From Clostridia bacterium (lineage in GTDB: Bacteria > Bacillota > Clostridia > Oscillospirales > Acutalibacteraceae), in the NCBI GenBank assembly GCA_017452785.1, contig JAFTLT010000050.1, positions 1 to 42,597 on the forward strand: a DNA stretch of 42,597 nucleotides, read 5' to 3'. The position numbers and the translations under genes were made by a program. Under the pieces are notes generated by a model. The model worked only from the letters and a program-made list of their open reading frames with translations. It made no database searches and was not told the origin of the DNA. Position 1 is the first letter of the stretch. Every line of letters begins with the position of its first letter. Positions 3,193 to 29,525 of this stretch are shown here, piece by piece.

Positions 3193-5106
3193 TCAGTGAT
3201 TTATTTCATAAACAGCCTTATCAAGGTCAATGGTTACTGTTGTTCCGTCTGAATAGGTTGTTTTCTGTTTGCGGTAGTTACCTAAAAATTCGTGTTTTAC
3301 CATTTCCTTATTATAGAGCTTGGCCTGCAAATCACAAAGAGGTGCAATGCGCTCAAGCTCCTTTTTAAGTTCATCATCGCTCATCATTTCAACATCAGCC
3401 GTGCGATTGTCAGTTCCGATTTTGCAAAGGGAGTTTCCGTAAGGATGAATATAGGGCATGCCGGCATTCAGAGCTCCGTATAAGTCGCCTTCCTCTCCCT
3501 TTGGAATACCCCAGTTATTAAACCAATTCCACGGAACCACTATACAGTCGTGATAAACAAGATTTCCAAGAGGAATGGGAATTCCAATCGCTTCTCCGTT
3601 TTCTTGAGGACGGAGCGCATGAGGTCCATGATGTACGAGAGCAAGATGATTGAGAAGTTGCATGCCGGGTTCTTCTGATGACATGATAAATCCTTTTTCA
3701 TTGAGATAATCAAAGCATTTGCCACGGAAATTCATGCTTTCCTCTCTTGTTATTTTATGGTCTTGGTGGAAGCATTCATCGCCTTGCATAATGGAAAAGA
3801 CATCGAGATATACACCTTGAACATCAATACCGTGTTCTTCAAGCTCAGCATAGGTTCTTTTGACTTCATCAAGGGCAAAAGCGGAGCAAAGATAACTGTG
3901 TTCACCGCCGTCCCAAATAGAACAGTATGGATTTGAGCCGTCAATATTGGTTAAGGCTTTTTCTTTATCGAAAACGGGGCTGTTATAATAATAATCTCTG
4001 TATTGGTCGTGGAGTGCAAAAACATATCCGAGTTCACGGCTGACAAGAGAAAATTCCCGGAATCCGTCCCATCCGCCTGCCTGTTCGCAAGGTGGAAGAA
4101 TATATGGATGATTGTTGTCATAGCCATCTTTTCCCCATCCGTCTGTGTGAATATAGAGTTTTTCAAGACCGAGAGACTTGAGCTTTTTAATCTGCTCAGC
4201 ACGCTCATAAAAAGTCGCACAAAGGATTTCGTTAGAGCCGTTTTTATCATAAAATTGTGATTTTTTGTTGATTTTAGAAAAAATCTTATGATGAAGAACG
4301 GGTGAACCGATAAGCTTTTTTATGTTAGGATTTTTTGCTATTTTTTGGTCAATTGTAACAAGTTGATTTTTCTTAATCAGATAGTTACGATAATCCTTTG
4401 CAACGGTATTGTAATCACCATTTTCATGAAAAATGAAACGGATTTTTCTTTCATATGACAACTTGCCCAGCGATGACTGCCAGTAAACCGAGTTAACGAA
4501 TGCTCTGTGTTTACCGAATGATGAATACATCGAAGCATCATAAGGAGTATCAACTATAGCAGTAAAAGAATGACCGTCACAGACTCTGCCCCAAACAGGC
4601 ATATAACATTCCCCGGTATTGATTTGCCGTTTAATATGTGTATAGCCAAATATGGTTGAAAGGTTCTTTTTGTATGCGTCAGGAAGTATAAATCCTTGAC
4701 GCATAGGGTCAACATGATACGACTCTTTACATTTTATTTTTGAGTTGAAGGGTGTGGGAAAATAAACTGCCTGCATATCATATCCTGTTTCGTTTTCTGC
4801 TTTTAATGAAAATTCTACCGTGTTTTCTTCAGTGATTTCGGCAGTACAAACAATAGTAAACGGCAGTTTTTTACCGAAAGCGACAAAACCGGAATAACGG
4901 GTTATAATTTTGTCCGTTGAATATTCAGTTTTCTTTTTTAACGCCGACCAAAACGGTCGAAAAGCACTGACATATTTGCCCCCTATTCTTTTTCGGATGA
5001 TTATATAGGGCTTTCTGCCGTCGCTCACCCAAGAAAAACCGTTGTGAACAATTTCATAATCGCCATTTCTTCTATTAAAACCAATTTTTATATTTTTTTG
5101 AGCCAT
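3193..5106 (-). CDS. GH129-type alpha-N-acetylgalactosaminidase
   Basis: This probably hydrolyses GalNAc alpha-linked to Ser/Thr (Tn antigen) from mucin glycopeptides in the cytoplasm. The 637-residue product has an N-terminal beta-sandwich (about 1-260), a TIM-barrel-like middle and a short C-terminal beta region, with no signal peptide. The key evidence is register. The Bifidobacterium GH129 enzyme NagBb is, from memory, about 630 residues with nucleophile Asp435 and acid/base Glu478; here GVYLDVFS puts Asp at 435 and MSSEEPGM puts Glu at 478. DUF5696-type annotation would be the conservative name. ATG 5106 is chosen over an upstream TTG because GCGGAGGATTGAA precedes it. It is transcribed alone from a consensus promoter and fits the neighbouring mucin-sugar genes. 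Confidence 0.75.
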   Translation of the reverse strand: MAQKNIKIGFNRRNGDYEIVHNGFSWVSDGRKPYIIIRKRIGGKYVSAFRPFWSALKKKTEYSTDKIITRYSGFVAFGKKLPFTIVCTAEITEENTVEFSLKAENETGYDMQAVYFPTPFNSKIKCKESYHVDPMRQGFILPDAYKKNLSTIFGYTHIKRQINTGECYMPVWGRVCDGHSFTAIVDTPYDASMYSSFGKHRAFVNSVYWQSSLGKLSYERKIRFIFHENGDYNTVAKDYRNYLIKKNQLVTIDQKIAKNPNIKKLIGSPVLHHKIFSKINKKSQFYDKNGSNEILCATFYERAEQIKKLKSLGLEKLYIHTDGWGKDGYDNNHPYILPPCEQAGGWDGFREFSLVSRELGYVFALHDQYRDYYYNSPVFDKEKALTNIDGSNPYCSIWDGGEHSYLCSAFALDEVKRTYAELEEHGIDVQGVYLDVFSIMQGDECFHQDHKITREESMNFRGKCFDYLNEKGFIMSSEEPGMQLLNHLALVHHGPHALRPQENGEAIGIPIPLGNLVYHDCIVVPWNWFNNWGIPKGEEGDLYGALNAGMPYIHPYGNSLCKIGTDNRTADVEMMSDDELKKELERIAPLCDLQAKLYNKEMVKHEFLGNYRKQKTTYSDGTTVTIDLDKAVYEINH

Positions 5107-5143
5107 TTCAATCCTCCGCAAATTATTCTGTATGCTTATGCAT

Positions 5144-6356: not shown

Positions 6357-8555
6357 TTATTCATTGATTTGATACCACTTGATTTCGTTGGCGTCAAGGT
6401 GTAAGTCAAAACTTGAACCGTCGCCCACGTAAACGGTTGTGTCCTGTGGCTCATAAGTATTATTTACAACACAGTATTTATTGTTCTTCACGTAAGCGTG
6501 AACTTCAATATTATAGTTTGTTGAATACCAACGGAGAAGCTCATCTTCAGCATTTGCACTCCACAACACAGCACGATAAAGAACTCGGCTGTTTTCAAAT
6601 GAATACGGCAATCCGCTGATGTAAACACCTCTGCCTTTACCGAAGTTTTTAACTGCCATCTGAACTTCTTCGGCGTGTCTTACGGCAAAAGGAAGCTCTG
6701 TTGCATTTTGAATTAGGACAGTTGTCCCCTCAAGGGCAACTATGTTTTTCTTACCTTCACCAAAATCAACATTGCCGTTTGTATCGGCAAGAATAAAGTG
6801 GTCTCTGTGCTCTTCGGTGTTGTATCTGCGAGTGTTAAGAGTAAATCCATTTTCTCTTTCAACACCGAGTATGTCATCAAGCTGGAAGAATTTGCCCTGC
6901 CATTGATGTGCAGCAGGCTCACCAACACCGATAAAACCGCCCCCGTTATATACAAACTTCTTTACAGCAGTAATAATTTGCTCATCAGCCCAATATTCGC
7001 CACCGGATTGTGCAGTATCTGCATCACCAACATTGATGATGGTATCAAAGTTATCAAGGATTGAACTGTCATTTTTAATGTCATCAAAGCTGATAAATGA
7101 TACATCAAAAGGTGCACCGCTTAACGCCTCAATAACACCGAAGTAAGAATAATTTTGTCTGTAGTACAAACCATGATGTACCATATGATTTGACCAGGAA
7201 CGCATTTTTCCCCAGCAGTTAAGCACAGCAACTCGCTTTACACAATAAGGTGTTACACCTTGAATATTGTCATAAAGAGTACGAAATTCATCACAGACAC
7301 TCTTGATATAATCCACAAATTCAGGGAATTTAAGTGCGAGTTTAAGATAACCACCATAGCCGATACGCTGAATAGGACTTCTTAAAATTGCACGTCTTGC
7401 TGTTACCCAATTTACCTTTGCCTCATAAATCGGATCGCCGCCCTCACAGAATACATCGGGGAAGAAATAAGGTAAAAATCTGCCCTCTGTATATTTAACA
7501 TTTTTTATGTCGCTGAATAAACGAAGTGTTGCACCATTACCGACACTGCCAACAACTGCATCAAGTCCGATTGAGGCGAAATCATCCATAAAGGGCTCCA
7601 TACCAATCCAATGGTCGCCCATAAACATCATGGCTTCTTTGCCGTATTCGTGAACAATATCAACCATTTCTTTTGCAAGAAGTGCAACCTCACGCATCTG
7701 AAATTTCTGAAAATCCTTAAATTCCTTTGACGGAATACGGTAGGTGTTATTCATATAACCTTGGTCAATGATAAATTCAGGACGGAATTTGTAACCGACT
7801 TCCTGTTCAAACTGTTCAAGAATATATGGGCTTACAGATGCTGAGTAACCAAACCAGTCAACAAATTTTTCACGAGCCAGTTCATCAAATACAAGAGTAA
7901 ACTGATGGAAAAATGTTGTAAATCTTACAACATCGACATATTCGTGAGTTTCAAGGAATCTGCGAAGTCTTTTTAATGAATGCGCCTTAGTTTTAGGTTG
8001 ACGAACATCAAATGTGATTTGAGGCTCAACATCCTTCCACTCGTTCACAACAGCGTTATACATATGTACCGGGTCCCACATGATATAAGCCAGGAAGCTC
8101 ACAGTATATTCGTGGAATAAAGTTGCATTGTCAATTGTTACATTACCGCTTGTCTCATCATAAGACCAACAATCAGGAGAAACTGTTTCGCCTGTTGTGC
8201 GGTCAACAACTTCCCACCACCTTGTAATATCATCATAGTTGTTCACCTTGAGCATATCGGGATAAAGATGATCCATAAGGTGAATTTTCAATGTGTTGTC
8301 AACAGCAGTATAAAAGGGTGTCATAATATACATCTGCTGAACTTCATCAGGGTTAGCCTTTGCCCATTCATTGTCCTTTCTTGTTGTGTAGTAGGTGGCA
8401 TAAATTTTTGCCCCTGTATCCTTCAATTCCTGCGGAAATTCCGTGCCGTCACAGTCACGGATGGCATCAGCACCCCACTCTTCCACAATCTCAAGTGTTT
8501 CCTTAATAACATCCATATCGGTAGGTATTGTTACTCGTCCTTTTTTTATTGCCAT
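6357..8555 (-). CDS. lnpA: Galacto-N-biose/lacto-N-biose phosphorylase (GH112)
   Basis: GH112 enzymes use phosphate to split Gal-beta-1,3-GlcNAc (lacto-N-biose) and Gal-beta-1,3-GalNAc (mucin core 1) into Gal-1-P plus the free HexNAc, in the cytoplasm. At 732 residues with no signal peptide it has the family's size. The general acid is Asp314 in MFMGDHWIGME (Asp313 in the Bifidobacterium enzyme, from memory). Domains are a TIM barrel (about 1-440), a middle Rossmann-like domain (about 445-660, including GGGFIGVGEPAAHQ) and a C-terminal beta domain. It is the last gene of the GH136 operon, starting 11 nt past the GH136 stop with GAGGTG overlapping that stop. The GH112 Gal-beta-1,4-rhamnose phosphorylase is the alternative, but the neighbours favour lacto-N-biose. 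Confidence 0.9.
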   Translation of the reverse strand: MAIKKGRVTIPTDMDVIKETLEIVEEWGADAIRDCDGTEFPQELKDTGAKIYATYYTTRKDNEWAKANPDEVQQMYIMTPFYTAVDNTLKIHLMDHLYPDMLKVNNYDDITRWWEVVDRTTGETVSPDCWSYDETSGNVTIDNATLFHEYTVSFLAYIMWDPVHMYNAVVNEWKDVEPQITFDVRQPKTKAHSLKRLRRFLETHEYVDVVRFTTFFHQFTLVFDELAREKFVDWFGYSASVSPYILEQFEQEVGYKFRPEFIIDQGYMNNTYRIPSKEFKDFQKFQMREVALLAKEMVDIVHEYGKEAMMFMGDHWIGMEPFMDDFASIGLDAVVGSVGNGATLRLFSDIKNVKYTEGRFLPYFFPDVFCEGGDPIYEAKVNWVTARRAILRSPIQRIGYGGYLKLALKFPEFVDYIKSVCDEFRTLYDNIQGVTPYCVKRVAVLNCWGKMRSWSNHMVHHGLYYRQNYSYFGVIEALSGAPFDVSFISFDDIKNDSSILDNFDTIINVGDADTAQSGGEYWADEQIITAVKKFVYNGGGFIGVGEPAAHQWQGKFFQLDDILGVERENGFTLNTRRYNTEEHRDHFILADTNGNVDFGEGKKNIVALEGTTVLIQNATELPFAVRHAEEVQMAVKNFGKGRGVYISGLPYSFENSRVLYRAVLWSANAEDELLRWYSTNYNIEVHAYVKNNKYCVVNNTYEPQDTTVYVGDGSSFDLHLDANEIKWYQINE

Positions 8556-8566
8556 ATTGCACCTCG

Positions 8567-9856
8567 TTAATCAATGATAATAATTTTGTTATTTTTTAAT
8601 GTCATTTTTCCGTGATTGCGCTTTCTTTTAAGGGGAACACCTTTACGCATATAGAACTCGTTGTCGGCAACATATGCATCAGGATTACCCGATGGACTTA
8701 ATATACCGCCCAAGTCATCATAACTGACATTATTTGTAAAAGTGTTATTTACTGCTTCGTCGAGGCAAAACATTACGCAACCGCCCTCGTTAAGCCTTGA
8801 ATAATTATATTTGTAGGTTGTGCCATCACCTGAGTCGGCATCATAAGCCATACCGTCTTGGTTAAGTTTGGTATCAACAGCCTCATTGTAAACAAGAAGG
8901 GCATCCTTGCATTTCCAAGGCCATATTGCCGCCGCAACCTTACCCATTCGTTTTCCTGCTTTTGTATAATAACGGTCGTTAATTTCCAAAGCACAGCTGT
9001 CTGACACATTATGTTCAACAAGTGGCTTCAATGCGTACATTGGAGTTATTGCATCGCCACCTATATTTTTTAGATAATTACCTGTAATCAAAATGTTTTC
9101 ATTACCGAAGTTTTTGAACGTTTCATCTTGGAGAAACTTTGTTGCAAAATCAGCGTGACGGTATGTATAACCTACTGCAATCCCCCAACGACTGACATTC
9201 TTCACATAGCACCCCTCAACGGTTACACCGTCATATCTTGCAACTCCCGTTTTATCTTCATCGGCAGGCTTAAATGCTGTCATATAAATTCCGCCGTTGT
9301 TCATGTGCTTGTTATACACATTACCGTTAACATCGTGAATAAAAAGATTTTTCAAAGTGATGGAGTGTAATGTTCCTCTGTTCTGAGCAACCACAGCAAC
9401 ACCTGTTCTGTCCATTTTGTTGGGTGCAGAGTAGTTTTGGGGAGTCGTGAACTCTTCTTTATTTGCAATTTCAATATCTTTAATAATAATATTTTCAACA
9501 TCGAAAAGTAAAACTGATGATGACACATTACCCTTGTAAACGTGACCAATGTAATCGAGTGGCACACCATAATCCTGAAACCATATTCCGTTACCATTTG
9601 TGTTTATGAAAGGAGGTCTGTCGCTGTCACCATAAGACGCAATCTCAATAGGCTCACCGTTAATATCACCACAGTTTTTCAAATGCAAAAACTGATTATC
9701 AAATACCGAACCTCTTTCGAGCAGAATTTTATCTCCTGCATTTATCGAGAGACCATTGATTTTATCAAGAGATGAAAACGGCGATTGAGGCGTTAAACCA
9801 TCGTTGCCATTATTTCCGTTAAGAGAGCTGACGTAATATATCGTTGATTTCTTCAT
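8567..9856 (-). CDS. GH136-type lacto-N-biosidase, catalytic beta-helix
   Basis: This probably releases lacto-N-biose from lacto-N-tetraose-type chains, the substrate of the next gene. The 429-residue product is a right-handed parallel beta-helix with repeated short strands (VENIIIKDIEIAN, GVTVEGCYVKN, NENILITGNYLKN). In the Bifidobacterium LnbX family the catalytic pair is two Asp seven residues apart (from memory 411/418); here NQDGMAYDADSGD gives Asp334 and Asp341 with that spacing. No signal peptide or anchor is visible, unlike the secreted bifidobacterial enzyme. The start at 9856 has AGAGGAGCAATACG before it and lies inside the upstream gene, overlapping it by 38 nt, which implies coupled translation. 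Other beta-helix hydrolase families are possible; context decides. Confidence 0.72.
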   Translation of the reverse strand: MKKSTIYYVSSLNGNNGNDGLTPQSPFSSLDKINGLSINAGDKILLERGSVFDNQFLHLKNCGDINGEPIEIASYGDSDRPPFINTNGNGIWFQDYGVPLDYIGHVYKGNVSSSVLLFDVENIIIKDIEIANKEEFTTPQNYSAPNKMDRTGVAVVAQNRGTLHSITLKNLFIHDVNGNVYNKHMNNGGIYMTAFKPADEDKTGVARYDGVTVEGCYVKNVSRWGIAVGYTYRHADFATKFLQDETFKNFGNENILITGNYLKNIGGDAITPMYALKPLVEHNVSDSCALEINDRYYTKAGKRMGKVAAAIWPWKCKDALLVYNEAVDTKLNQDGMAYDADSGDGTTYKYNYSRLNEGGCVMFCLDEAVNNTFTNNVSYDDLGGILSPSGNPDAYVADNEFYMRKGVPLKRKRNHGKMTLKNNKIIIID

Positions 9857-10271
9857 CGTATTGCTCCTCTCTTATCTTCTTATACACAACCATTTTAGAT
9901 TCCTTAAACTTGAATTTTTCACCACCATATCTTGTAAACAAATCTCTGTTATTCTTATAATACTCTTTAAGTAGTTTTTTTCCAATGGGCAAATATGTGT
10001 AATGATTTTTTATTACATCCTTTTCAGATGCGAAATCGAGTCTAAAACGTGTTAATTCATAGTCAAGATATACGGGCAGGGTAAATTGCTTTAAACCATA
10101 AACAATTGCATCGTTTTTTAGAGCCTGACGACGCTTTTCATTTTCCTCATTACATCTACGGGCAACTGCTTCAAGACTGTCGTCATCAATGAGCCCAATC
10201 TTCCGAGCAAAAGTAAGACAAGCCAAAGCGTATTGTCTTTGCTCATCAGTTGTGAAATAAAACGAATTCAT
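9819..10271 (-). CDS. Small helical helper of GH136 (LnbY-like)
   Basis: This 150-residue, charged, mostly alpha-helical protein lacks a signal peptide. It begins TTDEQRQYALACLTFARKIGL and ends in a Lys/Glu-rich region (VYKKIREEQYDEEIND). I do not recognise a catalytic motif. GH136 enzymes need a helical partner: a separate chaperone (LnbY) in Bifidobacterium, or an N-terminal helical domain/subunit in Eubacterium-type enzymes. The position immediately before and overlapping the beta-helix gene by 38 nt, plus the size and helical character, make the same role likely here. It is the first gene of the operon, with TAGGAG upstream of its ATG and a consensus promoter at 10314-10342. Confidence 0.65.
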   Translation of the reverse strand: MNSFYFTTDEQRQYALACLTFARKIGLIDDDSLEAVARRCNEENEKRRQALKNDAIVYGLKQFTLPVYLDYELTRFRLDFASEKDVIKNHYTYLPIGKKLLKEYYKNNRDLFTRYGGEKFKFKESKMVVYKKIREEQYDEEINDILRQLS

Positions 10272-10308: not shown

Positions 10309-10342
10309 ATTAAATTATAATATTATAATTTAATTATTTCAA
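10309..10342 (-). promoter_or_regulatory. Promoter and 26-bp palindrome of GH136-GH112 operon
   Basis: On the minus strand TTGAAA (10342-10337) and TATAAT (10319-10314) are separated by 17 nt. A perfect 26-bp palindrome occupies 10309-10334, so its whole length overlaps the -10 box and spacer. That placement suits a repressor operator. The predicted transcript starts near 10307, giving a 36-nt leader. Confidence 0.7.
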
Positions 10343-12129: not shown

Positions 12130-12158
12130 TTGAATATTTTGTCGCAGTTTGATATACT
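12130..12158 (+). promoter_or_regulatory. Promoter of the nucleotidyltransferase-nahK unit
   Basis: TTGAAT (12130-12135) and TATACT (12153-12158) are 17 nt apart, about 32 nt before ATG 12191. Confidence 0.65.
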
Positions 12159-12190
12159 TATCGCAAAAGCATAATAAAGGAGTTTCTATT

Positions 12191-13099
12191 ATGAAAGATA
12201 TTACTTTAGTTATTATGGCTGCAGGTATGGGCAGCAGATACGGTGGTCTCAAACAGATTGATCCCATCGGAGCAAACGGTGAAATTATACTTGATTATTC
12301 TGTATACGATGCTATTGAGGCAGGCTTTGATAAGGTTATCTTTGTTATCAAGCATGAAATAGAAGAAGACTTTAAAAAGATTATGCAAGGAAAATATGAA
12401 GAAAAAATCACAGTCGGATATGCTTATCAGGATCTAAACACCTTACCTGACGGCTACAGCGTACCCGATGGCAGAACTAAACCTTGGGGTACAGGTCACG
12501 CTGTACTCTCCTGTGAGGGTATGATTGACGGTCCTTTTGCAGTTATCAATGCCGATGATTATTACGGCAAAGAAACATTCAAGCTTATATACAATGAGTT
12601 AAAAAATAGCAAGAACGAAAACGAATTCTGTATGGTAGGCTTTAAGATTGAAAACACTCTTACAGAAAATGGTCATGTTGCAAGAGGCATATGCCAGACT
12701 AATGCGGAGGGTTATCTCACGGATATTGTTGAAAGAACAAAAATTGCTATCAGAGCCAACAAGATTATGTTCACTGAAGATGATGGCGAAAGTTGGACAG
12801 AGCTTGATAGAGGTAGTACCGTATCGATGAACTGTTGGGGGTTTAGCGGTATGATGATGACAGAGCTGAAAAGCCGCTTTGCTGATTTCCTTAATAAAAA
12901 TGAAGACAATATGCTTAAGTGTGAATATTTCCTGCCCTTTGTTGTTGACGACCTGCTGAAAGAAGGCAAAATAAGCGTAAAGGTAATGGATACCACAGAA
13001 AAGTGGTTCGGTGTTACATATAAAGAAGATAAGCAGAAAGTAGTTGATGCTATCAGACAGAAGATAACAAACGGTATTTATCCTGAAAAATTGTGGTGA
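12191..13099 (+). CDS. Sugar-1-phosphate nucleotidyltransferase
   Basis: This 302-residue cytosolic NTP-transferase would join a sugar 1-phosphate to UTP (or another NTP). The nucleotide-binding signature AAGMGSRYGGLKQ sits at residues 10-22 and the metal-binding segment NADDYYG at 120-126. Family members with this signature beside N-acetylhexosamine kinases plausibly make UDP-GlcNAc/UDP-GalNAc from HexNAc-1-P; that substrate is inferred from the next gene only. ATG 12191 follows AAAGGAG. The kinase gene begins 84 nt downstream with no terminator between, so one transcript is likely. It differs from GalU and GlmU in lacking their longer architecture. Confidence 0.8.
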   Translation: MKDITLVIMAAGMGSRYGGLKQIDPIGANGEIILDYSVYDAIEAGFDKVIFVIKHEIEEDFKKIMQGKYEEKITVGYAYQDLNTLPDGYSVPDGRTKPWGTGHAVLSCEGMIDGPFAVINADDYYGKETFKLIYNELKNSKNENEFCMVGFKIENTLTENGHVARGICQTNAEGYLTDIVERTKIAIRANKIMFTEDDGESWTELDRGSTVSMNCWGFSGMMMTELKSRFADFLNKNEDNMLKCEYFLPFVVDDLLKEGKISVKVMDTTEKWFGVTYKEDKQKVVDAIRQKITNGIYPEKLW

Positions 13100-13183: not shown

Positions 13184-14290
13184 ATGATAAATCAAGAAAT
13201 TATTACTGTTTTCGAGGCATTTGAAAGAGGCGGAAACATTGTAAGCGTAAACCAGATTACAGCAGGTCTTATCAATGCCACATATCTTGTTGAAACTGAC
13301 AAGAGAGAGAAGTACATACTTCAGAAAATCAATACCTTCGTGTTTAAAAATCCTGATAAGCTTATGGAAAATATTATCGGTGTAACAAAACATATTAGAG
13401 ATAAAATTAAAGAAGTCGGCGGTGACTATAAGAGAGAAAATCTCAATTTCCTTCCCTGTAACAGCGGTGAGTATTACTTCCGTGATGAAAATAACGGTGC
13501 TTGGAGAATGTATATTTATGTAGATGAAGCATTGACTTATAACAAACCGAAAAATAATGATACTTTCAGAAGCGCAGGTCATTCTTTCGGTAGATTTATG
13601 AAGCTTCTTGCCGACTATCCTGCTGCAACACTTCATGAAACAATAAATAACTTTCACTATACTCCTGCAAGATACAAAAACTTCCTCAACGCAGTTGAAG
13701 CTGACATAAAAGGCAGAAAAGCAGTATGCGAAAAAGAAATTCAGTTTGTAATTGACCGCAAGGCAGATACTCATAAGCTTACAGACCTTATTGCCGAAGG
13801 TGTTTTACCCCTCAGAGTAACCCATAACGATACAAAGCTCAACAATGTTCTTTTTGATATTAATACAGATAAAAGTATTTGTGTGATTGATCTTGACACA
13901 ATTATGCCCGGCCTTTCACTTTATGACTTTGGTGACAGTATCCGTTCAGGAGCTAATATGGCGGCAGAAGATGAAGCCGACCTTTCAAAAGTAGGCATTG
14001 ATCTTACTCTTTTTGAAGCTTTTGTTGACGGATATCTCAGCGAAACTGCAAAAAATCTTTGTGATGCAGAACTCGACAACCTCGCTTTTGGTGCAAAATT
14101 AATGACTTTCGAATGCGGTATGAGATTCCTCACTGACTACCTTGAAGGTGATGTTTATTTCAGAACAACTCACGCAGAGCATAATATAGTAAGGGCAAGA
14201 AATCAGTTCAAACTTGTCGCAGATATGGAAAAACACATGGATGAAATGAATGCAATAGTAATGAAATACAAAGAAAAATATACAAAATAA
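13184..14290 (+). CDS. nahK: N-acetylhexosamine 1-kinase (NahK-like)
   Basis: It would phosphorylate GlcNAc or GalNAc at the anomeric hydroxyl with ATP, the step after GH112 releases HexNAc. The 368-residue protein has the aminoglycoside-phosphotransferase fold. The catalytic loop VTHNDTKLNN puts Asp216 at the active site and the metal-binding IDLDTIMPG has Asp236, a spacing of 20 as I recall for Bifidobacterium NahK (Asp208/Asp228, 359 residues). The start at 13184 follows AAGGAGGATAAAA. It is probably co-transcribed with the nucleotidyltransferase. The bifidobacterial lnp operon groups LnpA, NahK, GalT and GalE; here the kinase is on the opposite strand from GH112 and no GalT or GalE lies in the window. 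Confidence 0.85.
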   Translation: MINQEIITVFEAFERGGNIVSVNQITAGLINATYLVETDKREKYILQKINTFVFKNPDKLMENIIGVTKHIRDKIKEVGGDYKRENLNFLPCNSGEYYFRDENNGAWRMYIYVDEALTYNKPKNNDTFRSAGHSFGRFMKLLADYPAATLHETINNFHYTPARYKNFLNAVEADIKGRKAVCEKEIQFVIDRKADTHKLTDLIAEGVLPLRVTHNDTKLNNVLFDINTDKSICVIDLDTIMPGLSLYDFGDSIRSGANMAAEDEADLSKVGIDLTLFEAFVDGYLSETAKNLCDAELDNLAFGAKLMTFECGMRFLTDYLEGDVYFRTTHAEHNIVRARNQFKLVADMEKHMDEMNAIVMKYKEKYTK

Positions 14291-14605: not shown

Positions 14606-15754
14606 TTACATCAGTTTAAGATAAAGCTCCTTGATTTCTTCAACGCTTGTATCTCTGGGATTACCGGGACGGCAAGCATCGTCAAAGGCTGATTGTGAAA
14701 GAAAGTCAACGTCTTCTGCTTTAACAATCTCTTTAAGGTCGGCAGGAATGCCGACATCAATTGAAAGTTGCTTCACAGCCTCAATAGCAGCCTTTCTTGC
14801 TTCTTCCAGGCTCATTTCATCAACACCGTTAACGCCCATAGCCTTTGCAATATCTCTGTACTTTTCGCCTGTTTCAGGTGCGTTGTATTCCATAACTGTG
14901 GGGAGGATAATTGCATTTGCAACACCGTGAGGTGTGTCATAAAGAGCGCCTAAGGGATGTGCCATTGAATGCACAATACCGAGACCTACATTACTGAAGC
15001 CCATACCTGCGATGTACTGACCGAGAGCCATACCTTCTCTGCCCTCAGCTGTATTTTCCACTGCACCACGAAGGCTCTTTGCAATAATTTCAATGGCCTT
15101 GATATGGAACATATCACTCATTTCCCATGCACCCTTGGTGATATAGCCTTCAATAGCGTGAGTGAGAGCATCCATACCTGTTGCAGCAGTGAGTCCCTTG
15201 GGCATTGTAGCCATCATATCAGGGTCAACAACGGCAACAACGGGAATGTCGTGAACGTCAACACATACCATTTTCCTGTTCTTTTCAGCATCAGTAATAA
15301 CATAGTTGATAGTTACCTCTGCTGCTGTACCTGCTGTTGTGGGCACTGCAATAATAGGAGTACATTTATTCTTTGTGGAAGCAACACCTTCAAGTGAGCG
15401 TACATCTGCGAATTCGGGGTTTTCAATAATGATGCCTATTGCCTTTGCTGTATCTATTGATGAACCGCCGCCGATTGCAACAATGCAATCAGCACCGCTT
15501 GCCTTGAATGCTTCAACACCTGTCTGAACATTTTCAATTGTAGGATTGGGTTTGATATTTGAATAAATCTCATAGGCAATCTCTGCACCGTCAAGAATGT
15601 CTGTTACCTTTTTAGTAACTTCAAATTTGATAAGGTCAGGGTCAGAGCAAACAAAAGCCTTTTTGAAGCCTCTTGCTTTAATTTCTGTTGCAATTTCTAC
15701 AATTGCACCTTTGCCGTGATAAGATGTTTCATTGAGTACAAATCTGTTTGCCAT
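14606..15754 (-). CDS. fucO: Lactaldehyde reductase / 1,2-propanediol oxidoreductase
   Basis: This iron-dependent group III alcohol dehydrogenase reduces L-lactaldehyde from the fuculose-phosphate aldolase to 1,2-propanediol, regenerating NAD+ during anaerobic fucose use. Its 382 residues match E. coli FucO. The NAD-binding GGGSSIDTAKA lies at 96-106. The Fe ligands are Asp195, His199 (MDALTHAIEG), His262 and His276 (VHSMAHPLGALYDTPH), each one below the E. coli positions 196/200/263/277. The start at 15754 follows AAAAGGAGTTAATATT. It lies downstream of fucI but is separated by 226 nt containing a broken GH35 gene, so it may be read from the fuc transcript or from a local promoter. Confidence 0.93.
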   Translation of the reverse strand: MANRFVLNETSYHGKGAIVEIATEIKARGFKKAFVCSDPDLIKFEVTKKVTDILDGAEIAYEIYSNIKPNPTIENVQTGVEAFKASGADCIVAIGGGSSIDTAKAIGIIIENPEFADVRSLEGVASTKNKCTPIIAVPTTAGTAAEVTINYVITDAEKNRKMVCVDVHDIPVVAVVDPDMMATMPKGLTAATGMDALTHAIEGYITKGAWEMSDMFHIKAIEIIAKSLRGAVENTAEGREGMALGQYIAGMGFSNVGLGIVHSMAHPLGALYDTPHGVANAIILPTVMEYNAPETGEKYRDIAKAMGVNGVDEMSLEEARKAAIEAVKQLSIDVGIPADLKEIVKAEDVDFLSQSAFDDACRPGNPRDTSVEEIKELYLKLM

Positions 15755-15784
15755 AATATTAACTCCTTTTGATCAATAAAGATT

Positions 15785-15968
15785 TTATAAATATTCCCTA
15801 TTTAGAAGCTTGACAATGTCAAGCATACCGCTGAAGTCGGAATATACTTTTTTCGATTTGTGAAGATTCCACCAAACACATGTTTCAACGGTATTAAGAC
15901 CCGCAAACTTAAGCAATTAATAACCTGTCTTCTGAATGTTAAGAAAGTGTGCGGAAGTAGTGAATTGA
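15785..15968 (-). pseudogene. Fossil of a GH35 beta-galactosidase
   Basis: Just past the fucI stop the minus strand reads SIHYFRTL, matching the N-terminal GH35 motif (G-IHYFR). After stops and a frameshift near 15925 it continues LLKFAGLNTVETCVWWNLHK and then DFSGMLDIVKLL, matching the family's GLNTVETYVPWNLHE and DFSGNLDIV blocks in the right order and spacing, before a stop at 15785-15787. Only about 60 residues of what is usually a 580-780 residue enzyme remain, in two frames. A beta-galactosidase once stood in the fuc operon. Confidence 0.8.
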
Positions 15969-15980
15969 AGTAGTTTTTAA

Positions 15981-17765
15981 TTATCCGTAAATCGGTCCGT
16001 ATTTCTCACAAGCCTTATAGTCAGCGCTCTGGCTGTCTTCCGTTCCGAAAGCTGCCCATGCGTGAGGACGGAAGATTTCATCTTCAGATACATTGTGCAT
16101 ATTTACGGGAATACGAAGCATTGAAGCAAGAGTGATAAGGTCTGCACCAACGTGACCGTAAACGGTTACGCCGTGGTTCGCACCCCAGTTAGCCATAACG
16201 GAGTAAACATCCTTGAATGCACCTTCACCTGTGAGTTTCGGAGCAAACCAGGTTGTAGGCCAAGTGGGGTCAGTTCTCTTGTCAATGGGAGTGTGAGCTT
16301 CATCAGGAAGATTTGCTGTGTAACCCTCGGCTATCTGCATTACAGGACCAACACCCTCAACGATGTTGACTCTGAGCATTGTTACAGGCATTTCAGCCTT
16401 GCAACGGAAGTGGCTTGAGAATCCGCCGCCACGGAAATATTCGTAGTTTGCTCTGCACCAGTCTGTAGCTTTAAGACAAGCATTGATGTCAGCTTCAGTC
16501 ATTTCCCAGAAAGGCTTCATACAGCTTTCGCCGTTTTCATTTTTAGCAGCACCGCTACCATCAAGAGCAGTTGCACCTGAGTTGATAAGGTGAATAAAAC
16601 CATCCTTTGCTTTACCTTCAGGCTTGATACCTGTAACTCTTTCACAAGCTTCGGGACTCCAGTATGTACGCACATCGTGAAAGCAGGGAGCACTCGCTGT
16701 AAGAAGAGTACCGAGGAGCATTGACACACCGTTAAGGTTATCATTTTCTGTTGCAAAGGCTGTGGGAGCTTTTGTACCATTCCAGTTAAAGGTTGAAGCC
16801 ATAATTGCTTCGGTAAAGTCCGCATTTGGAAGCCAGTCTGTCCACTGTCTCTGACCCTGGAAACCACCTGCAACAGCATTTTTGCCAAGTGCCTCTTCAT
16901 GCCAACCGATTTCGTCAAGCTTCTTGTTACCGTAAAGAATATCATTGACTATAATAGTCATCTTTGCGATAAATTCCCAATCCTTATCTGGATTAACTAC
17001 CTTGGATTTTCTGATGATGTCAGGAAGATTTTTACCTGCGTTGACGTCAAAGCCTTCCTTGCAGTTTGCTTTAATCCAGGCAAGAGCCTTTTCATATTCG
17101 TCTTTATCATAAATTTCAAGGGTAATTCTGCGTACAATTTCTGTCATATCAACCCACTCAGGGCGAATGCCGAGATACTTCTGGAAGAAATCTGCATTAC
17201 AGTAACTGCCTGCAATACCCATGGAGATACCACCGATATTGACATAGGATTTATTCTTCATCCAGCCTACCGCAACGGCACTTCTTGCAAAGCGAAGAAT
17301 CTTTTCCTTAACATCGTCGGGAATGGAATGGTCATTGATATCCTGAACATCCTTGCCGTAAATTGAAAATGCAGGGAGTCCCCTCTGGGCGTGTGCAGCC
17401 ATAACTGCCGCAAGATAAACTGCACCGGGTCTTTCAGTACCGTTGAAGCCCCAGACAGCCTTTATAGTGTTCGGGTTCATATCAAAAGTTTCTGAGCCGT
17501 AACACCAACAGCGTGTAACGCTTAAGGTTGCAACAACATTCTGAGTGGAAAATTCTTCCTCACACTTTGCGGCTTCTGCACCACCGCCGATGGTTGTGCT
17601 TGAAATAACGCACTGTACGGGTGTACCGTCGGGATATTTTAGAGTTTCGCTGATGAGCTTTGCAGCAGCGTTTGCCATTGCCATTGTATGTTCTTCTAGG
17701 CTTTCTCTTACACCACCCCAGCGGCCGTCAATAACAGGTCTGATACCAATTCTTGGATACAACAT
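15981..17765 (-). CDS. fucI: L-fucose isomerase
   Basis: It interconverts L-fucose and L-fuculose (Mn2+-dependent, cytosolic hexamer), the first committed step of fucose catabolism. It has 594 residues, against 591 in E. coli FucI. Active-site residues keep a constant +3 offset from the E. coli positions I recall (337/361/528): Glu340 ([10 protein letters not shown]), Asp364 (FHDVRTYWS) and His531 ([10 protein letters not shown]). The N terminus [20 protein letters not shown] is typical. ATG 17765 follows AAAGGAGAAAATATT, 18 nt past fucK. D-arabinose isomerase activity is a known side reaction of the family. Confidence 0.97.
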
Positions 17766-17783
17766 AATATTTTCTCCTTTAAT

Positions 17784-19196
17784 TTATTTCTTTATTATTT
17801 TGCAAAATCTTTCATAGGCTTCATCCCAACAGGCGGTATGTTGCGCTTCAAAGATTTTTACTTTTTCTGTTTCGGCAATGATTTCTCTGCCTTTTTCTAT
17901 ACTTTCTATTTTGCCCAAAGCTATGAGCTGAAGCATAATATTACCGAGAGCCGTAGCTTCAATAGGTCCTGCAATTACGGGTATGCCCAGACTCTGTGCT
18001 GCAAGCTCGCACAAAAATCCGTCTTTTGTGCCACCACCCATAAGGTGAAGCACACCGAACTTTTTACCCGTGCACTCGGCTATCTGTTCGAGGGCGAGTC
18101 GGTACTTGAGGGCAAGACTTTCATAAATGCATCTGACTAACTGACCAATAGTTTCGGGTACGGGTTGGTCTGTATTTTTGCAGAACGCTCTGATTTTATC
18201 GGGAAGATTACCGTGAGCTGAAAGCTCAGGAGCATCAGGGTCAATAAAACTTCTGAAAGGCTGACTTTCTCTGGCAAACATTTCAAGTTCATTATAGGAA
18301 TACTTCTTGTCTGTTTTTGCAAGGTCACGTCTTGTTTCCTGAATAAGCCACAGACCGCTGATATTTTTAAGAAAGTTAATCTTTCCGTTTGCGCCAATTT
18401 CGTTGGAAAGCTCAAGAGCGTTGCTCTGCTTTGTCATAACGGGATCATCAAGCTCACATCCGATAAGAGACCATGTGCCGCAGGAAAGAAAGGCAGCATT
18501 TTCACTTTTGGCAGGCATAGCCGCAACGGCACACTGTGTATCGTGCCCTGCCACACTGATAACGGGAATACCATTATACTCTCCGTTTATGGTTGCGCTT
18601 TCGCAAAGTGGCGGGAACAAGGTTTCGTTTATACTGAAAGCAGAAAGCACTGTTTTACTCCACTTTTTTGTTATGGGATTAAGCATTTGGGAAGTTGAAG
18701 CAATAGTGGTTTCACACACCTTTTTGCCCGTGAGCAGATAACCGAATAAATCAGGCATAAACAATAATTTATCTGCCTTGTCGGAGTTTTCGTCACAGAT
18801 AAGCTGAAACAGAGTGTTGATGTTCATTATCTGATTTCCCGTTTCGGCATAAAGTTCATCAGCATCAATCTTTTTAAAAGCCTTGCTCAAAGCATCTTTG
18901 GTACGCTCGTCACGGTAGTGGTAAGGCTCGTGGATAAGGGTGCCGTCTTTGTCAAGTAAGCCGTAGTCAACACCCCATGTATCGAAAGCCATAGAATCAA
19001 TTTTACCCGCTTTTTCTATGGCAATTTTAATCTCTGCGAGTATCATATCAACATCGTGGCAGATATGACCGTCAACGGTTTTCGGTATATTTTCAAAACG
19101 GTGGATTTCTTCGTAATTTATCTCTTTGCCGTCAAAAACCGCCTTTATGGCTCTGCCTGTTGAAGCACCGAAGTCAAAGGCTAAAACTGTTTTCAT
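17784..19196 (-). CDS. fucK: L-fuculokinase, RhaB-like FGGY kinase
   Basis: This FGGY-family sugar kinase (470 residues) would phosphorylate L-fuculose with ATP. It has the N-terminal phosphate-binding FDFGASTGRAI (7-17), FDTWGVDYG (71-79), the catalytic Asp219 in VAGHDTQCAVAA, and the adenosine motif MGGGTKDGF near the C terminus. By sequence it looks closer to rhamnulokinase (RhaB) than to E. coli FucK. Because it sits between fucU and fucI and beside fucA, fuculose is the likely substrate; rhamnulose cannot be excluded. Its ATG overlaps the fucU stop (ATGA), so the two are translationally coupled. Confidence 0.85.
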   Translation of the reverse strand: MKTVLAFDFGASTGRAIKAVFDGKEINYEEIHRFENIPKTVDGHICHDVDMILAEIKIAIEKAGKIDSMAFDTWGVDYGLLDKDGTLIHEPYHYRDERTKDALSKAFKKIDADELYAETGNQIMNINTLFQLICDENSDKADKLLFMPDLFGYLLTGKKVCETTIASTSQMLNPITKKWSKTVLSAFSINETLFPPLCESATINGEYNGIPVISVAGHDTQCAVAAMPAKSENAAFLSCGTWSLIGCELDDPVMTKQSNALELSNEIGANGKINFLKNISGLWLIQETRRDLAKTDKKYSYNELEMFARESQPFRSFIDPDAPELSAHGNLPDKIRAFCKNTDQPVPETIGQLVRCIYESLALKYRLALEQIAECTGKKFGVLHLMGGGTKDGFLCELAAQSLGIPVIAGPIEATALGNIMLQLIALGKIESIEKGREIIAETEKVKIFEAQHTACWDEAYERFCKIIKK

Positions 19197-19630
19197 TTAA
19201 CCACACCCTTTTTTAGAAGAATGTTAGCATAAATTGCTTTTTCGCCTGTAGCTATTATAAGATAAGCACCTTTTGCTCTTTCATAAAAAGCAAAGCGTTC
19301 CGTATAATCAATATCGTGGTGGGCGGGCTCATATTTTGCGAGGATTTCCTCGTAGGTCTGCCATATTTCAGGGGTGCCGCAGGTGTCGCCCTTTACAACT
19401 TCCATAAGAGCAACGGGCTTTTCCGTGTATGTATCGAGAGGGATAAGTTTTAAAACAGCATCCAGTATTTCAGGTACACCATGACCGTCGGCTCGGATAA
19501 CTACTGAATTTTTACCAACACTGTGGCACGGAAAATTGCCGTCAGCAATAACAAGCTCATCACCGTGGCCCATTTCAGCAAGCGCCTTTAAAAGTTCGGG
19601 TGAGATAATGGGAGATATTCCTTTAAGCAT
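19193..19630 (-). CDS. fucU: L-fucose mutarotase
   Basis: FucU (RbsD/FucU family) interconverts alpha- and beta-L-fucose so the isomerase gets its preferred anomer. The 145-residue length is typical. The family signature LAEMGHGDELVIADGNFP holds catalytic His22, and Asp30 follows. The ATG at 19630 is preceded by AAGAGGTGATGTT, 11 nt after fucA. Its stop overlaps the fucK start by 4 nt. RbsD (ribose pyranase) is the alternative name, but the fucose neighbours decide. Confidence 0.92.
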   Translation of the reverse strand: MLKGISPIISPELLKALAEMGHGDELVIADGNFPCHSVGKNSVVIRADGHGVPEILDAVLKLIPLDTYTEKPVALMEVVKGDTCGTPEIWQTYEEILAKYEPAHHDIDYTERFAFYERAKGAYLIIATGEKAIYANILLKKGVVK

Positions 19631-19641
19631 AACATCACCTC

Positions 19642-20352
19642 TTAATCTTTTTTATGAAGCATATCATCTCCGGGATTAAAGACTTTATAGCCGGGATGTC
19701 TGCCGGTAACTCTATAATAGCCACGAAGGTCAATGAGCTTTTGGATATTGTCTCTGCTTATATCATGACTTCCGCCGAGAATAACGGCATTGATTGTGAT
19801 TTTTGCCCAAAGTTCAAGACTTTCCATTCGGTAAAATGCAGTAATAACATCGCTGCCTACGGCAAGTGCGCCGTGATTTTCAAGAAGCATTACGTCGTGT
19901 TCTTCGAGGTAGGGTTCAATTGAATCGGGCACTTCGGAAGTCGAAGGAGTACCGTAAGGAGTAAGAGGTACAGAACCGATAACTGCCACGTCCTCGATCA
20001 TATTGTACATATCCATAGCCTTGTGAGCTACAGCAAAGCCTGTTGCACCGGGAGGATGAGCGTGAATAACACTGAAAACATCTTCTCTTTTATCGTAGCA
20101 GCGAAGATGCATTTTGATTTCACTTGAAGGTCTGTATCCCTCCTGAGCTTCAAGAATATTGCCCTCTTTGTCTAAAATAACAAGCTTATCGGGAGTTATA
20201 AATGATTTGCTGATGCCTGTGGGTGTTGCAATTACTCTGCCGTCAGGGAGTCTTGCACTTACGTTACCGTCATTTGCCGCAACCCAGCCGAGCTGCCACA
20301 TTTTATGACAGACATCACAAATTTGTTCTTTGATTTGCTGTAAATTATCCAT
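19642..20352 (-). CDS. fucA: L-fuculose-1-phosphate aldolase
   Basis: This class II zinc aldolase splits L-fuculose-1-P into dihydroxyacetone phosphate and L-lactaldehyde. It has 236 residues (E. coli FucA 215). The catalytic Glu78 is in PSSEIKMH and the Zn ligands are His97, His99 (VIHAHPPGA) and His160 (LLENHGALAVG), all at +5 from the E. coli positions I recall. GNVSAR at about 29-34 is the phosphate/substrate loop. It is the first gene of the fuc operon, with AAAAGGAGAAATCAT before the ATG and a strong promoter at 20385-20413. A ribulose-5-P epimerase of the same fold is the alternative. Confidence 0.92.
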   Translation of the reverse strand: MDNLQQIKEQICDVCHKMWQLGWVAANDGNVSARLPDGRVIATPTGISKSFITPDKLVILDKEGNILEAQEGYRPSSEIKMHLRCYDKREDVFSVIHAHPPGATGFAVAHKAMDMYNMIEDVAVIGSVPLTPYGTPSTSEVPDSIEPYLEEHDVMLLENHGALAVGSDVITAFYRMESLELWAKITINAVILGGSHDISRDNIQKLIDLRGYYRVTGRHPGYKVFNPGDDMLHKKD

Positions 20353-27422: not shown

Positions 27423-29525
27423 ATGTTAAATCTCATCAAAAGAAACACTCCTGCTATTGCCGAATGTTTCACTCTTGAAACCACTGACAGAATAAACGGC
27501 AAAAACTACTATGAAATAAGCGCACTTAACGGCAGAGTACATATAAAAGGTGACTGCACAATCAGCCTTGCTATGGGCTATTATGCTTATCTGAAAAAAT
27601 ATTGCAGAGTCAACTATGCCCACTGCGGAAACACTGAGCTAAATGTCACTGAGGCTCCCCTGCCTACAGAAACAACCTTAAGTATTATTGATCAGGAAAG
27701 AAGAGCTTATCTCAACTACTGCACACTTTCTTATTCAATGCGCTCATGGGGTTGGAAAGAGTGGGAAAAGGAAATTGACTTTATGGCTATGAACGGCATC
27801 AATATGCCTCTCAGCGTTATCGGCAACGAGGCCACAATTTTCTATACACTTCTCGATTTAGGCATCAGCGAGGAACAGGCTCTCTCTTTCGTTGCAGGCC
27901 CATCATATTACGCTTGGCAGATGATGACAAATCTCGACTCCTTTATGCATATTCCTGACAAAAAATATATAGACAAACGCCTTGCCCTCGGCAAAAAGAT
28001 AATTGAGCGCCAGGTAGAGCTTGGCATGACTCCCATTCAGCAGGGCTTTGCAGGTCATGTGCCCGAATTCATCAAAGAGGTTTATCCTGACTCGTCACTT
28101 CAGCACCTGCCCACATGGTGCGGTTTTCCGGGTACTTGTCAGTTTGATCCCCTTGATAAAAACTTTGTCGCATTCGGCAGAGCACTTCTTGAAAAACAAA
28201 AGGAGCTTTTCGGTGCGTACCACTATTATGCCTGTGACCCCTTCCACGAAAATGAGCCTCCCACAGACGGCGGTGTGTATCTTCACAATGTTGGCAAAAC
28301 TATCTCAAAGATGTATACCGACTTTGACAAGGATGCCACATGGGTAATGCAGGGCTGGTCGCTGCGTGAAGAAATAGTAAAGGCCGTTGACAAGGATAAG
28401 CTCCTCATTCTTGACCTTGACGGCAGCAAGAGTGAACTTCACAAGGGCTTCTGGGGCTACAGTTTCATCTGCGGTACCCTTCACAATTTCGGCGACAGAA
28501 ACTCACTGCACGGCTCGGCAGAGCTCCTGAGTGAAAATCAGTATGCTGTTAGAAAAGAAAAATATCCCTCAATTGTAGGCACAGGACTTTTTATGGAAGG
28601 CTTTTTCCAGAATCCCCTTTATTACGATTTAGCCTTCCACACTATCACACAAGAGAAAAAGGTTGACCTTGACAGTTGGCTCACCGACTACGCTGAAAGA
28701 CGTTACGGCAGTGATGAGAATTGCCTTAAAAATGCGGTGTTTGCCCTGAGAGACAGCTGCTATAATCCCAATTGCATCGGCAGAGAAACAAGCTCAATTA
28801 TTGCCGCAAGGCCCTCCACAACTCACTATCACACCGCCCCCAACGACCATGTTGAGCTGAGATATGACAACAAGGTGCTTTTCAGTGCTTTGACAGAGCT
28901 TCTTGAAGCTGAAAACGCAACAACTGACGGCTACCGTTTTGACATCTGCGATATTCTAAGGCAGGTGCTTTCCAACAAAGCTAAAGAGGTGTACTTTGCC
29001 ATAATGGAAAGCTTCCGCTATGGCGACAAAGAAGCCTTTGAGGATAACTGCTCGCTGTTTGAGAAGATACTTCTCTCAGTCGACAGACTTCTTGCCACAA
29101 GAGACGAGTTGAGATTTGACACTCACATTAATGAAGCAGTTGCCAACGCTTGCTGCAATGAGCATAAGGAGATTTTCAGACAGAATGAAGTCACCCTCAT
29201 CACAATATGGGGACCCTATGAAAACAACGAGCTTTTCGACTATGCATGGAAAGAATGGGCAGGACTGATAAAGGACTATTACCTCCCCCGTTGGCAGATG
29301 TTCTTCAATGAGCTCAGAGCGTCCTTCGGTGAGGATATCAGCCACATTTCCGACACAGAATTTAATCACAACGAAAGAAACGACTATGAAACCACAGATT
29401 TTCAGCAAAAGCTCCGTGATTTCGAGTTCAGCTTTACACACGCTTACAAAGGCCGTGAGCGCAAGGGTGAGGATACAATAGTTGTGGCAAAAAAGCTTGC
29501 AGAAACATTTAAAGAGATTATATAA
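27423..29525 (+). CDS. GH89 alpha-N-acetylglucosaminidase
   Basis: GH89 enzymes remove alpha-linked GlcNAc, for example the alpha-1,4-GlcNAc cap of gastric-type mucin, or GlcNAc in heparan fragments. The 700-residue product has a small N-terminal alpha/beta domain (about 1-85), a TIM barrel and a helical C-terminal domain. Family blocks are YCTLSYSMRSWGWKEWEKEI, MNGINMPLSVIGNE and ACDPFHENEPP. The acid/base is Glu276 (DPFHE) and the nucleophile probably Glu392 (GLFMEGFFQNP). Their spacing of 116 is close to that in Clostridium perfringens GH89 (118, from memory). There is no signal peptide, unlike the large secreted C. perfringens enzyme, so it should act on imported glycans. It has its own promoter and a terminator that overlaps its stop codon. 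Confidence 0.9.
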   Translation: MLNLIKRNTPAIAECFTLETTDRINGKNYYEISALNGRVHIKGDCTISLAMGYYAYLKKYCRVNYAHCGNTELNVTEAPLPTETTLSIIDQERRAYLNYCTLSYSMRSWGWKEWEKEIDFMAMNGINMPLSVIGNEATIFYTLLDLGISEEQALSFVAGPSYYAWQMMTNLDSFMHIPDKKYIDKRLALGKKIIERQVELGMTPIQQGFAGHVPEFIKEVYPDSSLQHLPTWCGFPGTCQFDPLDKNFVAFGRALLEKQKELFGAYHYYACDPFHENEPPTDGGVYLHNVGKTISKMYTDFDKDATWVMQGWSLREEIVKAVDKDKLLILDLDGSKSELHKGFWGYSFICGTLHNFGDRNSLHGSAELLSENQYAVRKEKYPSIVGTGLFMEGFFQNPLYYDLAFHTITQEKKVDLDSWLTDYAERRYGSDENCLKNAVFALRDSCYNPNCIGRETSSIIAARPSTTHYHTAPNDHVELRYDNKVLFSALTELLEAENATTDGYRFDICDILRQVLSNKAKEVYFAIMESFRYGDKEAFEDNCSLFEKILLSVDRLLATRDELRFDTHINEAVANACCNEHKEIFRQNEVTLITIWGPYENNELFDYAWKEWAGLIKDYYLPRWQMFFNELRASFGEDISHISDTEFNHNERNDYETTDFQQKLRDFEFSFTHAYKGRERKGEDTIVVAKKLAETFKEII

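Follow-up and report, generated by a model that had tools for sequence, protein, structure and literature searches.

The window analyzed here is a stretch of 42,597 nt (positions 1-42,597 of contig JAFTLT010000050.1, assembly GCA_017452785.1) from a Clostridia bacterium of the Acutalibacteraceae. It carries two overlapping minus-strand genes predicted to encode the two chains of a GH136 lacto-N-biosidase. The upstream gene (9819-10271) encodes a helper of 150 amino acids and the downstream gene (8567-9856) a β-helix protein of 429 amino acids. They share 38 nt (9819-9856; 38 is 2 modulo 3) that encode both the C-terminus of the helper and the N-terminus of the enzyme. A Shine-Dalgarno-like AGGAG (9864-9868, minus strand) lies inside Arg-Glu-Glu codons of the helper gene, 7 nt 5' of the enzyme start. 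This start is credible, being the sole ATG, GTG or TTG between the upstream in-frame stop and a conserved YYVSS motif. A third minus-strand gene (6357-8555) begins 11 nt past the enzyme stop and encodes a GH112 1,3-β-galactosyl-N-acetylhexosamine phosphorylase, which scores 941 bits against TIGR02336 (cut-off 560) and matches Pfam Lact_bio_phlase at 1.7e-216 and 3wfz at 1.7e-210. An earlier sequence-only reading had described a helical ORF of 150 residues overlapping a β-helix gene by 38 nt, with GH112 after the pair, and this layout was borne out. A promoter-like site, TTGAAA-17-TATAAT (10314-10342, minus strand), lies about 40 nt 5' of the helper start. It is a consensus match only, with 11 of 12 consensus bases, and ranks at the top of 33 sites found against 21.5 expected from shuffling.

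The catalytic and helper subunits

Relatives were collected by a scan of genome contigs, which turned up a relative in 83 stretches; the 80 best of these were retained and gave 77 loci. The split-type set consists of 40 rows, the window and 39 loci, after four repeat loci were dropped.

The large protein is identified by sequence and predicted fold as a GH136 catalytic subunit (LnbX or GH136II). Five lacto-N-biosidase sequences of the PDB match it with E-values of 2e-168 to 2e-80, among them 6kqs at 2.1e-168 and 7v6m. The first six Foldseek rows for its AlphaFold2 (AF2) model (pLDDT 93.7) are all lacto-N-biosidases; 6kqt, the ErLnb136 enzyme of Eubacterium ramulus, aligns with an E-value of 2.5e-44, an rmsd of 1.4 and 59% identity. 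The predicted catalytic residues D334 and D341, seven residues apart, and W314 are kept in 40/40 split-type rows. They were placed on ErLnb136 with a chain number equal to the published number plus 2, an offset deduced from W548, D568 and D575.

The small protein is nearly all helical (AF2 pLDDT 94.2) and resembles the N-terminal domain of 6kqs by sequence and by fold, which identifies it as the LnbY/GH136I helper. The sequence-only reading had placed the pair in these two families and had proposed profile searches as part of the check. Sequence and fold comparisons confirmed the homology; the curated equivalog cut-offs were missed, NF047897 (LnbX) scoring 316 bits against 2500 and NF047894 (LnbY) 47.1 against 400.

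Both proteins look cytosolic, as had been claimed. In a 19-residue hydropathy scan the large protein peaks at 0.30 within its first 60 residues and the small one at 0.74; by this simple test neither has a signal peptide or membrane segment. The test was applied to the window; the cytosolic type of the other 39 rows is deduced from their short N-termini.

The helper may contribute to the active site. Its tyrosine, Tyr115 in the window and Tyr145 in ErLnb136, is kept in 38/40 rows. According to the main text of PMC7335108, Y145 sits by the active site, and the mutation Y145A raises KM 4.9-fold in an enzyme whose helper is a permanent domain. These observations, together with the existence of fused helper-enzyme forms, make it improbable that the helper acts purely as a folding chaperone and departs once the enzyme is complete, with the overlap serving timing and not stoichiometry.

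A conserved dual-coding overlap

The same 38-nt overlap is present in three relatives known from metagenome-assembled genomes (L002, L003 and L004; 95, 94 and 90% protein identity), so a misassembly of a single genome does not explain it. All 40 split-type rows have an overlap, of 32-50 nt with the start chosen by script, and all in a single common phase. A Shine-Dalgarno-like match 3-12 nt 5' of the enzyme start is at least 5 nt long in 33 of the 40 rows and 4 nt long in another 6, the 4-nt matches having no chance control; in one row, L034, no match was found in this interval.

Synonymous constraint was measured on the 34 rows that remained after thinning at 80% codon identity, by comparing the 12 overlap codons with other windows of the same genes. 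In the enzyme frame the synonymous identity of the overlap exceeds expectation by 0.134, the largest of 396 other windows reaching 0.108 (permutation p 2e-4). In the helper frame the excess is 0.279, against a largest value of 0.058 among 125 others (p 5e-5). Since synonymous codons are conserved in both frames above every other window of both genes, the overlap goes beyond chance. In addition, Glu codons at the Shine-Dalgarno-like site are GAG in 65/70 cases, compared with 186/570 elsewhere in the helper genes of the 40 rows (Fisher 2e-23), and in 54/59 against 153/484 in the thinned rows. The p-values for overlap and GAG are optimistic because the rows share kinship and are not independent. 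The overlap has long served as a dual-coding segment, and the Glu codons of the helper double as the Shine-Dalgarno sequence of the enzyme gene.

The commonest gene overlaps are of 4 and 1 nt, and long phase-1 overlaps are a known prokaryotic class, as described in parts of PMC3887535 and PMC10666635. The 38-nt length by itself is ordinary; more telling is that the overlap is conserved as a dual-coding segment. An overlap of the GH136 pair is undescribed in the titles and abstract openings of the literature surveyed and in the main text of PMC7335108.

Two other explanations of the overlap were weighed. A programmed +1 frameshift would yield a single fused helper-enzyme protein; the common phase of all the overlaps and the existence of naturally fused relatives would agree with it. 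However, 39/40 rows have a Shine-Dalgarno-like match of at least 4 nt before the enzyme start, and no conserved slippery site was visible on inspection, which was by eye and not by a systematic test. Furthermore, in the fused proteins of L033 and L037 the helper and enzyme domains are separated by about 60-80 linker residues, which a frameshift product would lack. A frameshift is therefore highly improbable. In L037 (Schaedlerella) the linker, at about 4795-4990, consists partly of short CDSVQ-type repeats.

The second explanation, that shared ancestry and compaction left the overlap as a by-product that plays no part in coupling, is unlikely but deserves more weight. Long phase-1 overlaps can arise without selection, according to part of PMC3887535, and the mRNA at the enzyme start is unstructured, so coupling is not called for. 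Against this stand the GAG preference noted above, with its Fisher p from 40 related rows, and the dual-frame constraint, which indicates that both ends are read, though the importance of coupling is not thereby shown. The history of the clade also argues against it. In a midpoint-rooted tree of 78 rows (77 loci and the window; further loci were excluded because they repeated others or scored below 340 bits), a branch of 100/100 support separates the 40 overlapping rows and 2 fused ones from the remaining 36. A second tree of 54 rows added two fused E. ramulus genes and included 10 rows from beyond that branch; in it the fused form requires two origins. The only non-overlapping members of the clade are these 4 fused rows of 44. 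Co-translational pairing, as the sequence-only reading had suggested, is a plausible role for a segment whose conservation is observed.

The distribution of the GH136 pair is patchy. Matches with E <= 1e-90 occur in 8/300 genomes from the window's family, its own included, and in 1/391 genomes from the class, which is the window's own. Outside the overlap clade, L061 and L078 (Streptococcus suis) have a GH136-like gene with an upstream LnbY-like ORF. Seven GH136-like catalytic ORFs (L043, L046, L047, L048, L053, L056 and L057) have no LnbY-like ORF in the available flanks when these are searched with the helper profile at E 1e-3; these enzymes may function helper-free or with a distant helper. 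L054, L065 and L066 likewise show no match to the helper profile, L054 with only about 200 nt upstream.

The GH112 cassette and its glycan context

The helper-enzyme-GH112 cassette recurs in the window's subclade without an ABC permease found nearby. GH112 is directly downstream in 25/27 rows; the other two (L003 and L021) have less than 260 nt beyond the enzyme, too short to judge. In L002 the downstream GH112 gene appears as two ORFs, through either a genuine disruption or a faulty assembly. None of the 27 subclade rows shows an ABC permease like those found in the other rows, although 7 of them lack any gene on the upstream side of the helper and all but the window have flanks of at most 5 kb. 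The remaining 15 rows of the clade have ABC permeases in 12 cases and an adjacent GH112 in 2.

Eight subclade genomes of 1.7-2.6 Mb (L004, L006, L008, L009, L017, L018, L020 and L022) contain 1-3 matches to SBP_bac_1 and 13-21 to MFS_2 (glycoside-pentoside-hexuronide, GPH, type). One of them, L009, is the named strain Eubacterium coprostanoligenes ATCC 51222, in which the cassette is the same. Four larger genomes (3.2-6.5 Mb) from the other 15 rows contain 14-47 and 5-38, respectively; the counts include fragments and the completeness of these genomes is not stated. The window's own genome, which is 90% complete, has 2 SBP_bac_1 and 15 MFS_2 matches. The two SBP_bac_1 proteins would be PotD-like and MalE-like, judged from their neighbor genes alone, and the window's contig (C39) has no match to SBP_bac_1 or BPD_transp_1. 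The binding protein of the corresponding Roseburia hominis locus is presumably of the SBP_bac_1 type. With few SBP_bac_1 matches, many MFS_2 matches and no ABC permease found beside the pair, a GPH-type symporter is our guess for the importer.

Two plus-strand genes fit, by sequence, the lacto-N-biose (LNB/GNB) pathway together with GH112. One (13184-14290) encodes an N-acetylhexosamine 1-kinase, NahK-like, matching 4wh1 at 1.4e-91. The other (12149-13099) encodes a nucleotidyltransferase matching NTP_transferase at 2.3e-6 and 3pnn, an entry whose function is unnamed, at 7.2e-90; it may be the pathway's sugar-1-phosphate uridylyltransferase. Further along are fucose-pathway-like genes on the minus strand (14606-20352) for a lactaldehyde reductase, an L-fucose isomerase, a rhamnulokinase-like kinase and a class II aldolase, and a GH89 gene (27423-29525). 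With these the region looks like one of host-glycan foraging. A minus-strand gene (3193-5121) encodes a 642-aa DUF5696 or weakly GH101-like protein, of which the near relative L003 has a homologue upstream of its helper gene.

The substrate may be approached from both the loops of the enzyme and its surroundings. Shortening of loops 1 and 2 is given in the main text of PMC7335108 as a mark of the Lewis a/b-specific enzyme. In the 6kqs alignment both loops align ungapped with ErLnb136, a lacto-N-tetraose enzyme, subject to the numbering offset of 2, and lacto-N-tetraose is therefore the likelier substrate. A different main substrate, such as mucin-type or fucosylated type-1 chains, would suit the fucose-pathway, GH89 and GH101-like genes of the window and also the source of its three nearest relatives, which were obtained from the colon or rectum of roe deer and not from infants; given the ungapped loops, it is rather unlikely.

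Proposed mechanism and known systems

The locus very probably encodes, on the evidence of sequence and predicted structure, a two-chain cytosolic GH136 lacto-N-biosidase made from overlapping genes and followed by the GH112 phosphorylase. The helper would be translated first, and ribosomes would then start the enzyme gene at the ATG within the last helper codons, using the Shine-Dalgarno sequence spelled by the Arg-Glu-Glu codons. The two chains would assemble into one enzyme in which the helper clasps the β-helix and contributes Tyr115 on the acceptor side of the active site. After import, lacto-N-tetraose or a similar type-1 chain would be cut to lacto-N-biose and lactose. GH112 would phosphorolyse the lacto-N-biose to Gal-1-P and GlcNAc, which NahK and the nucleotidyltransferase would process further.

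A broader proposal is tentative and somewhat doubtful as a whole. It joins a clade built on an ancient dual-coding overlap, where the final helix of the helper would encode the start and ribosome-binding site of the enzyme gene and so force helper-first, matched synthesis, to a subclade whose enzyme was freed from an ABC importer and works in a minimal cassette fed by a GPH symporter. If the coupling is true, separating the two genes should reduce active enzyme. The locus also points to an importer, perhaps non-ABC, for type-1 chain oligosaccharides. It is a clear example of an enzyme-helper pair that has retained a gene overlap, and with it the R. hominis type of intracellular lacto-N-biosidase reaches the Eubacterium coprostanoligenes-like group.

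The pair can be compared with three known systems. The LnbX/LnbY enzyme of Bifidobacterium longum (5gqc) likewise combines a helper with a catalytic β-helix (40% identity, TM-score 0.93 by query length). Its chains, however, are longer and have a signal peptide or membrane segment, and its genes lie outside any locus with further CAZyme genes, according to the main text of PMC7335108. ErLnb136 (6kqs/6kqt) shares the helper-domain fold, the key residues and a catalytic domain 59% identical to that of the window. Unlike the window pair it is one fused chain, whose GH136I domain spans residues 7-224 compared with 150 amino acids here, and GH42 is reported in place of GH112 for E. ramulus in the same text.

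The closest precedent is RhLnb136I/RhLnb136II of R. hominis, described in the main text of PMC7335108 as a split enzyme that lacks both signal peptide and transmembrane segment, requires co-expression for activity and is encoded in a locus with GH112 and an ABC transporter. The window pair is alike in its two genes, in its lack of a signal peptide (here by hydropathy) and in the GH112 of its locus, and differs in that no ABC transporter was found beside it. That text makes no mention of a gene overlap in RhLnb136I/II ("overlap" there has another sense), R. hominis DNA being outside the comparison. The compact intracellular arrangement of GH136 and GH112 proposed by the sequence-only reading is therefore present, but it is not new, a split form having been known from R. 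hominis since 2020. Beyond that main text, the traits of the window pair that are its own are the missing ABC importer and the conserved overlap.
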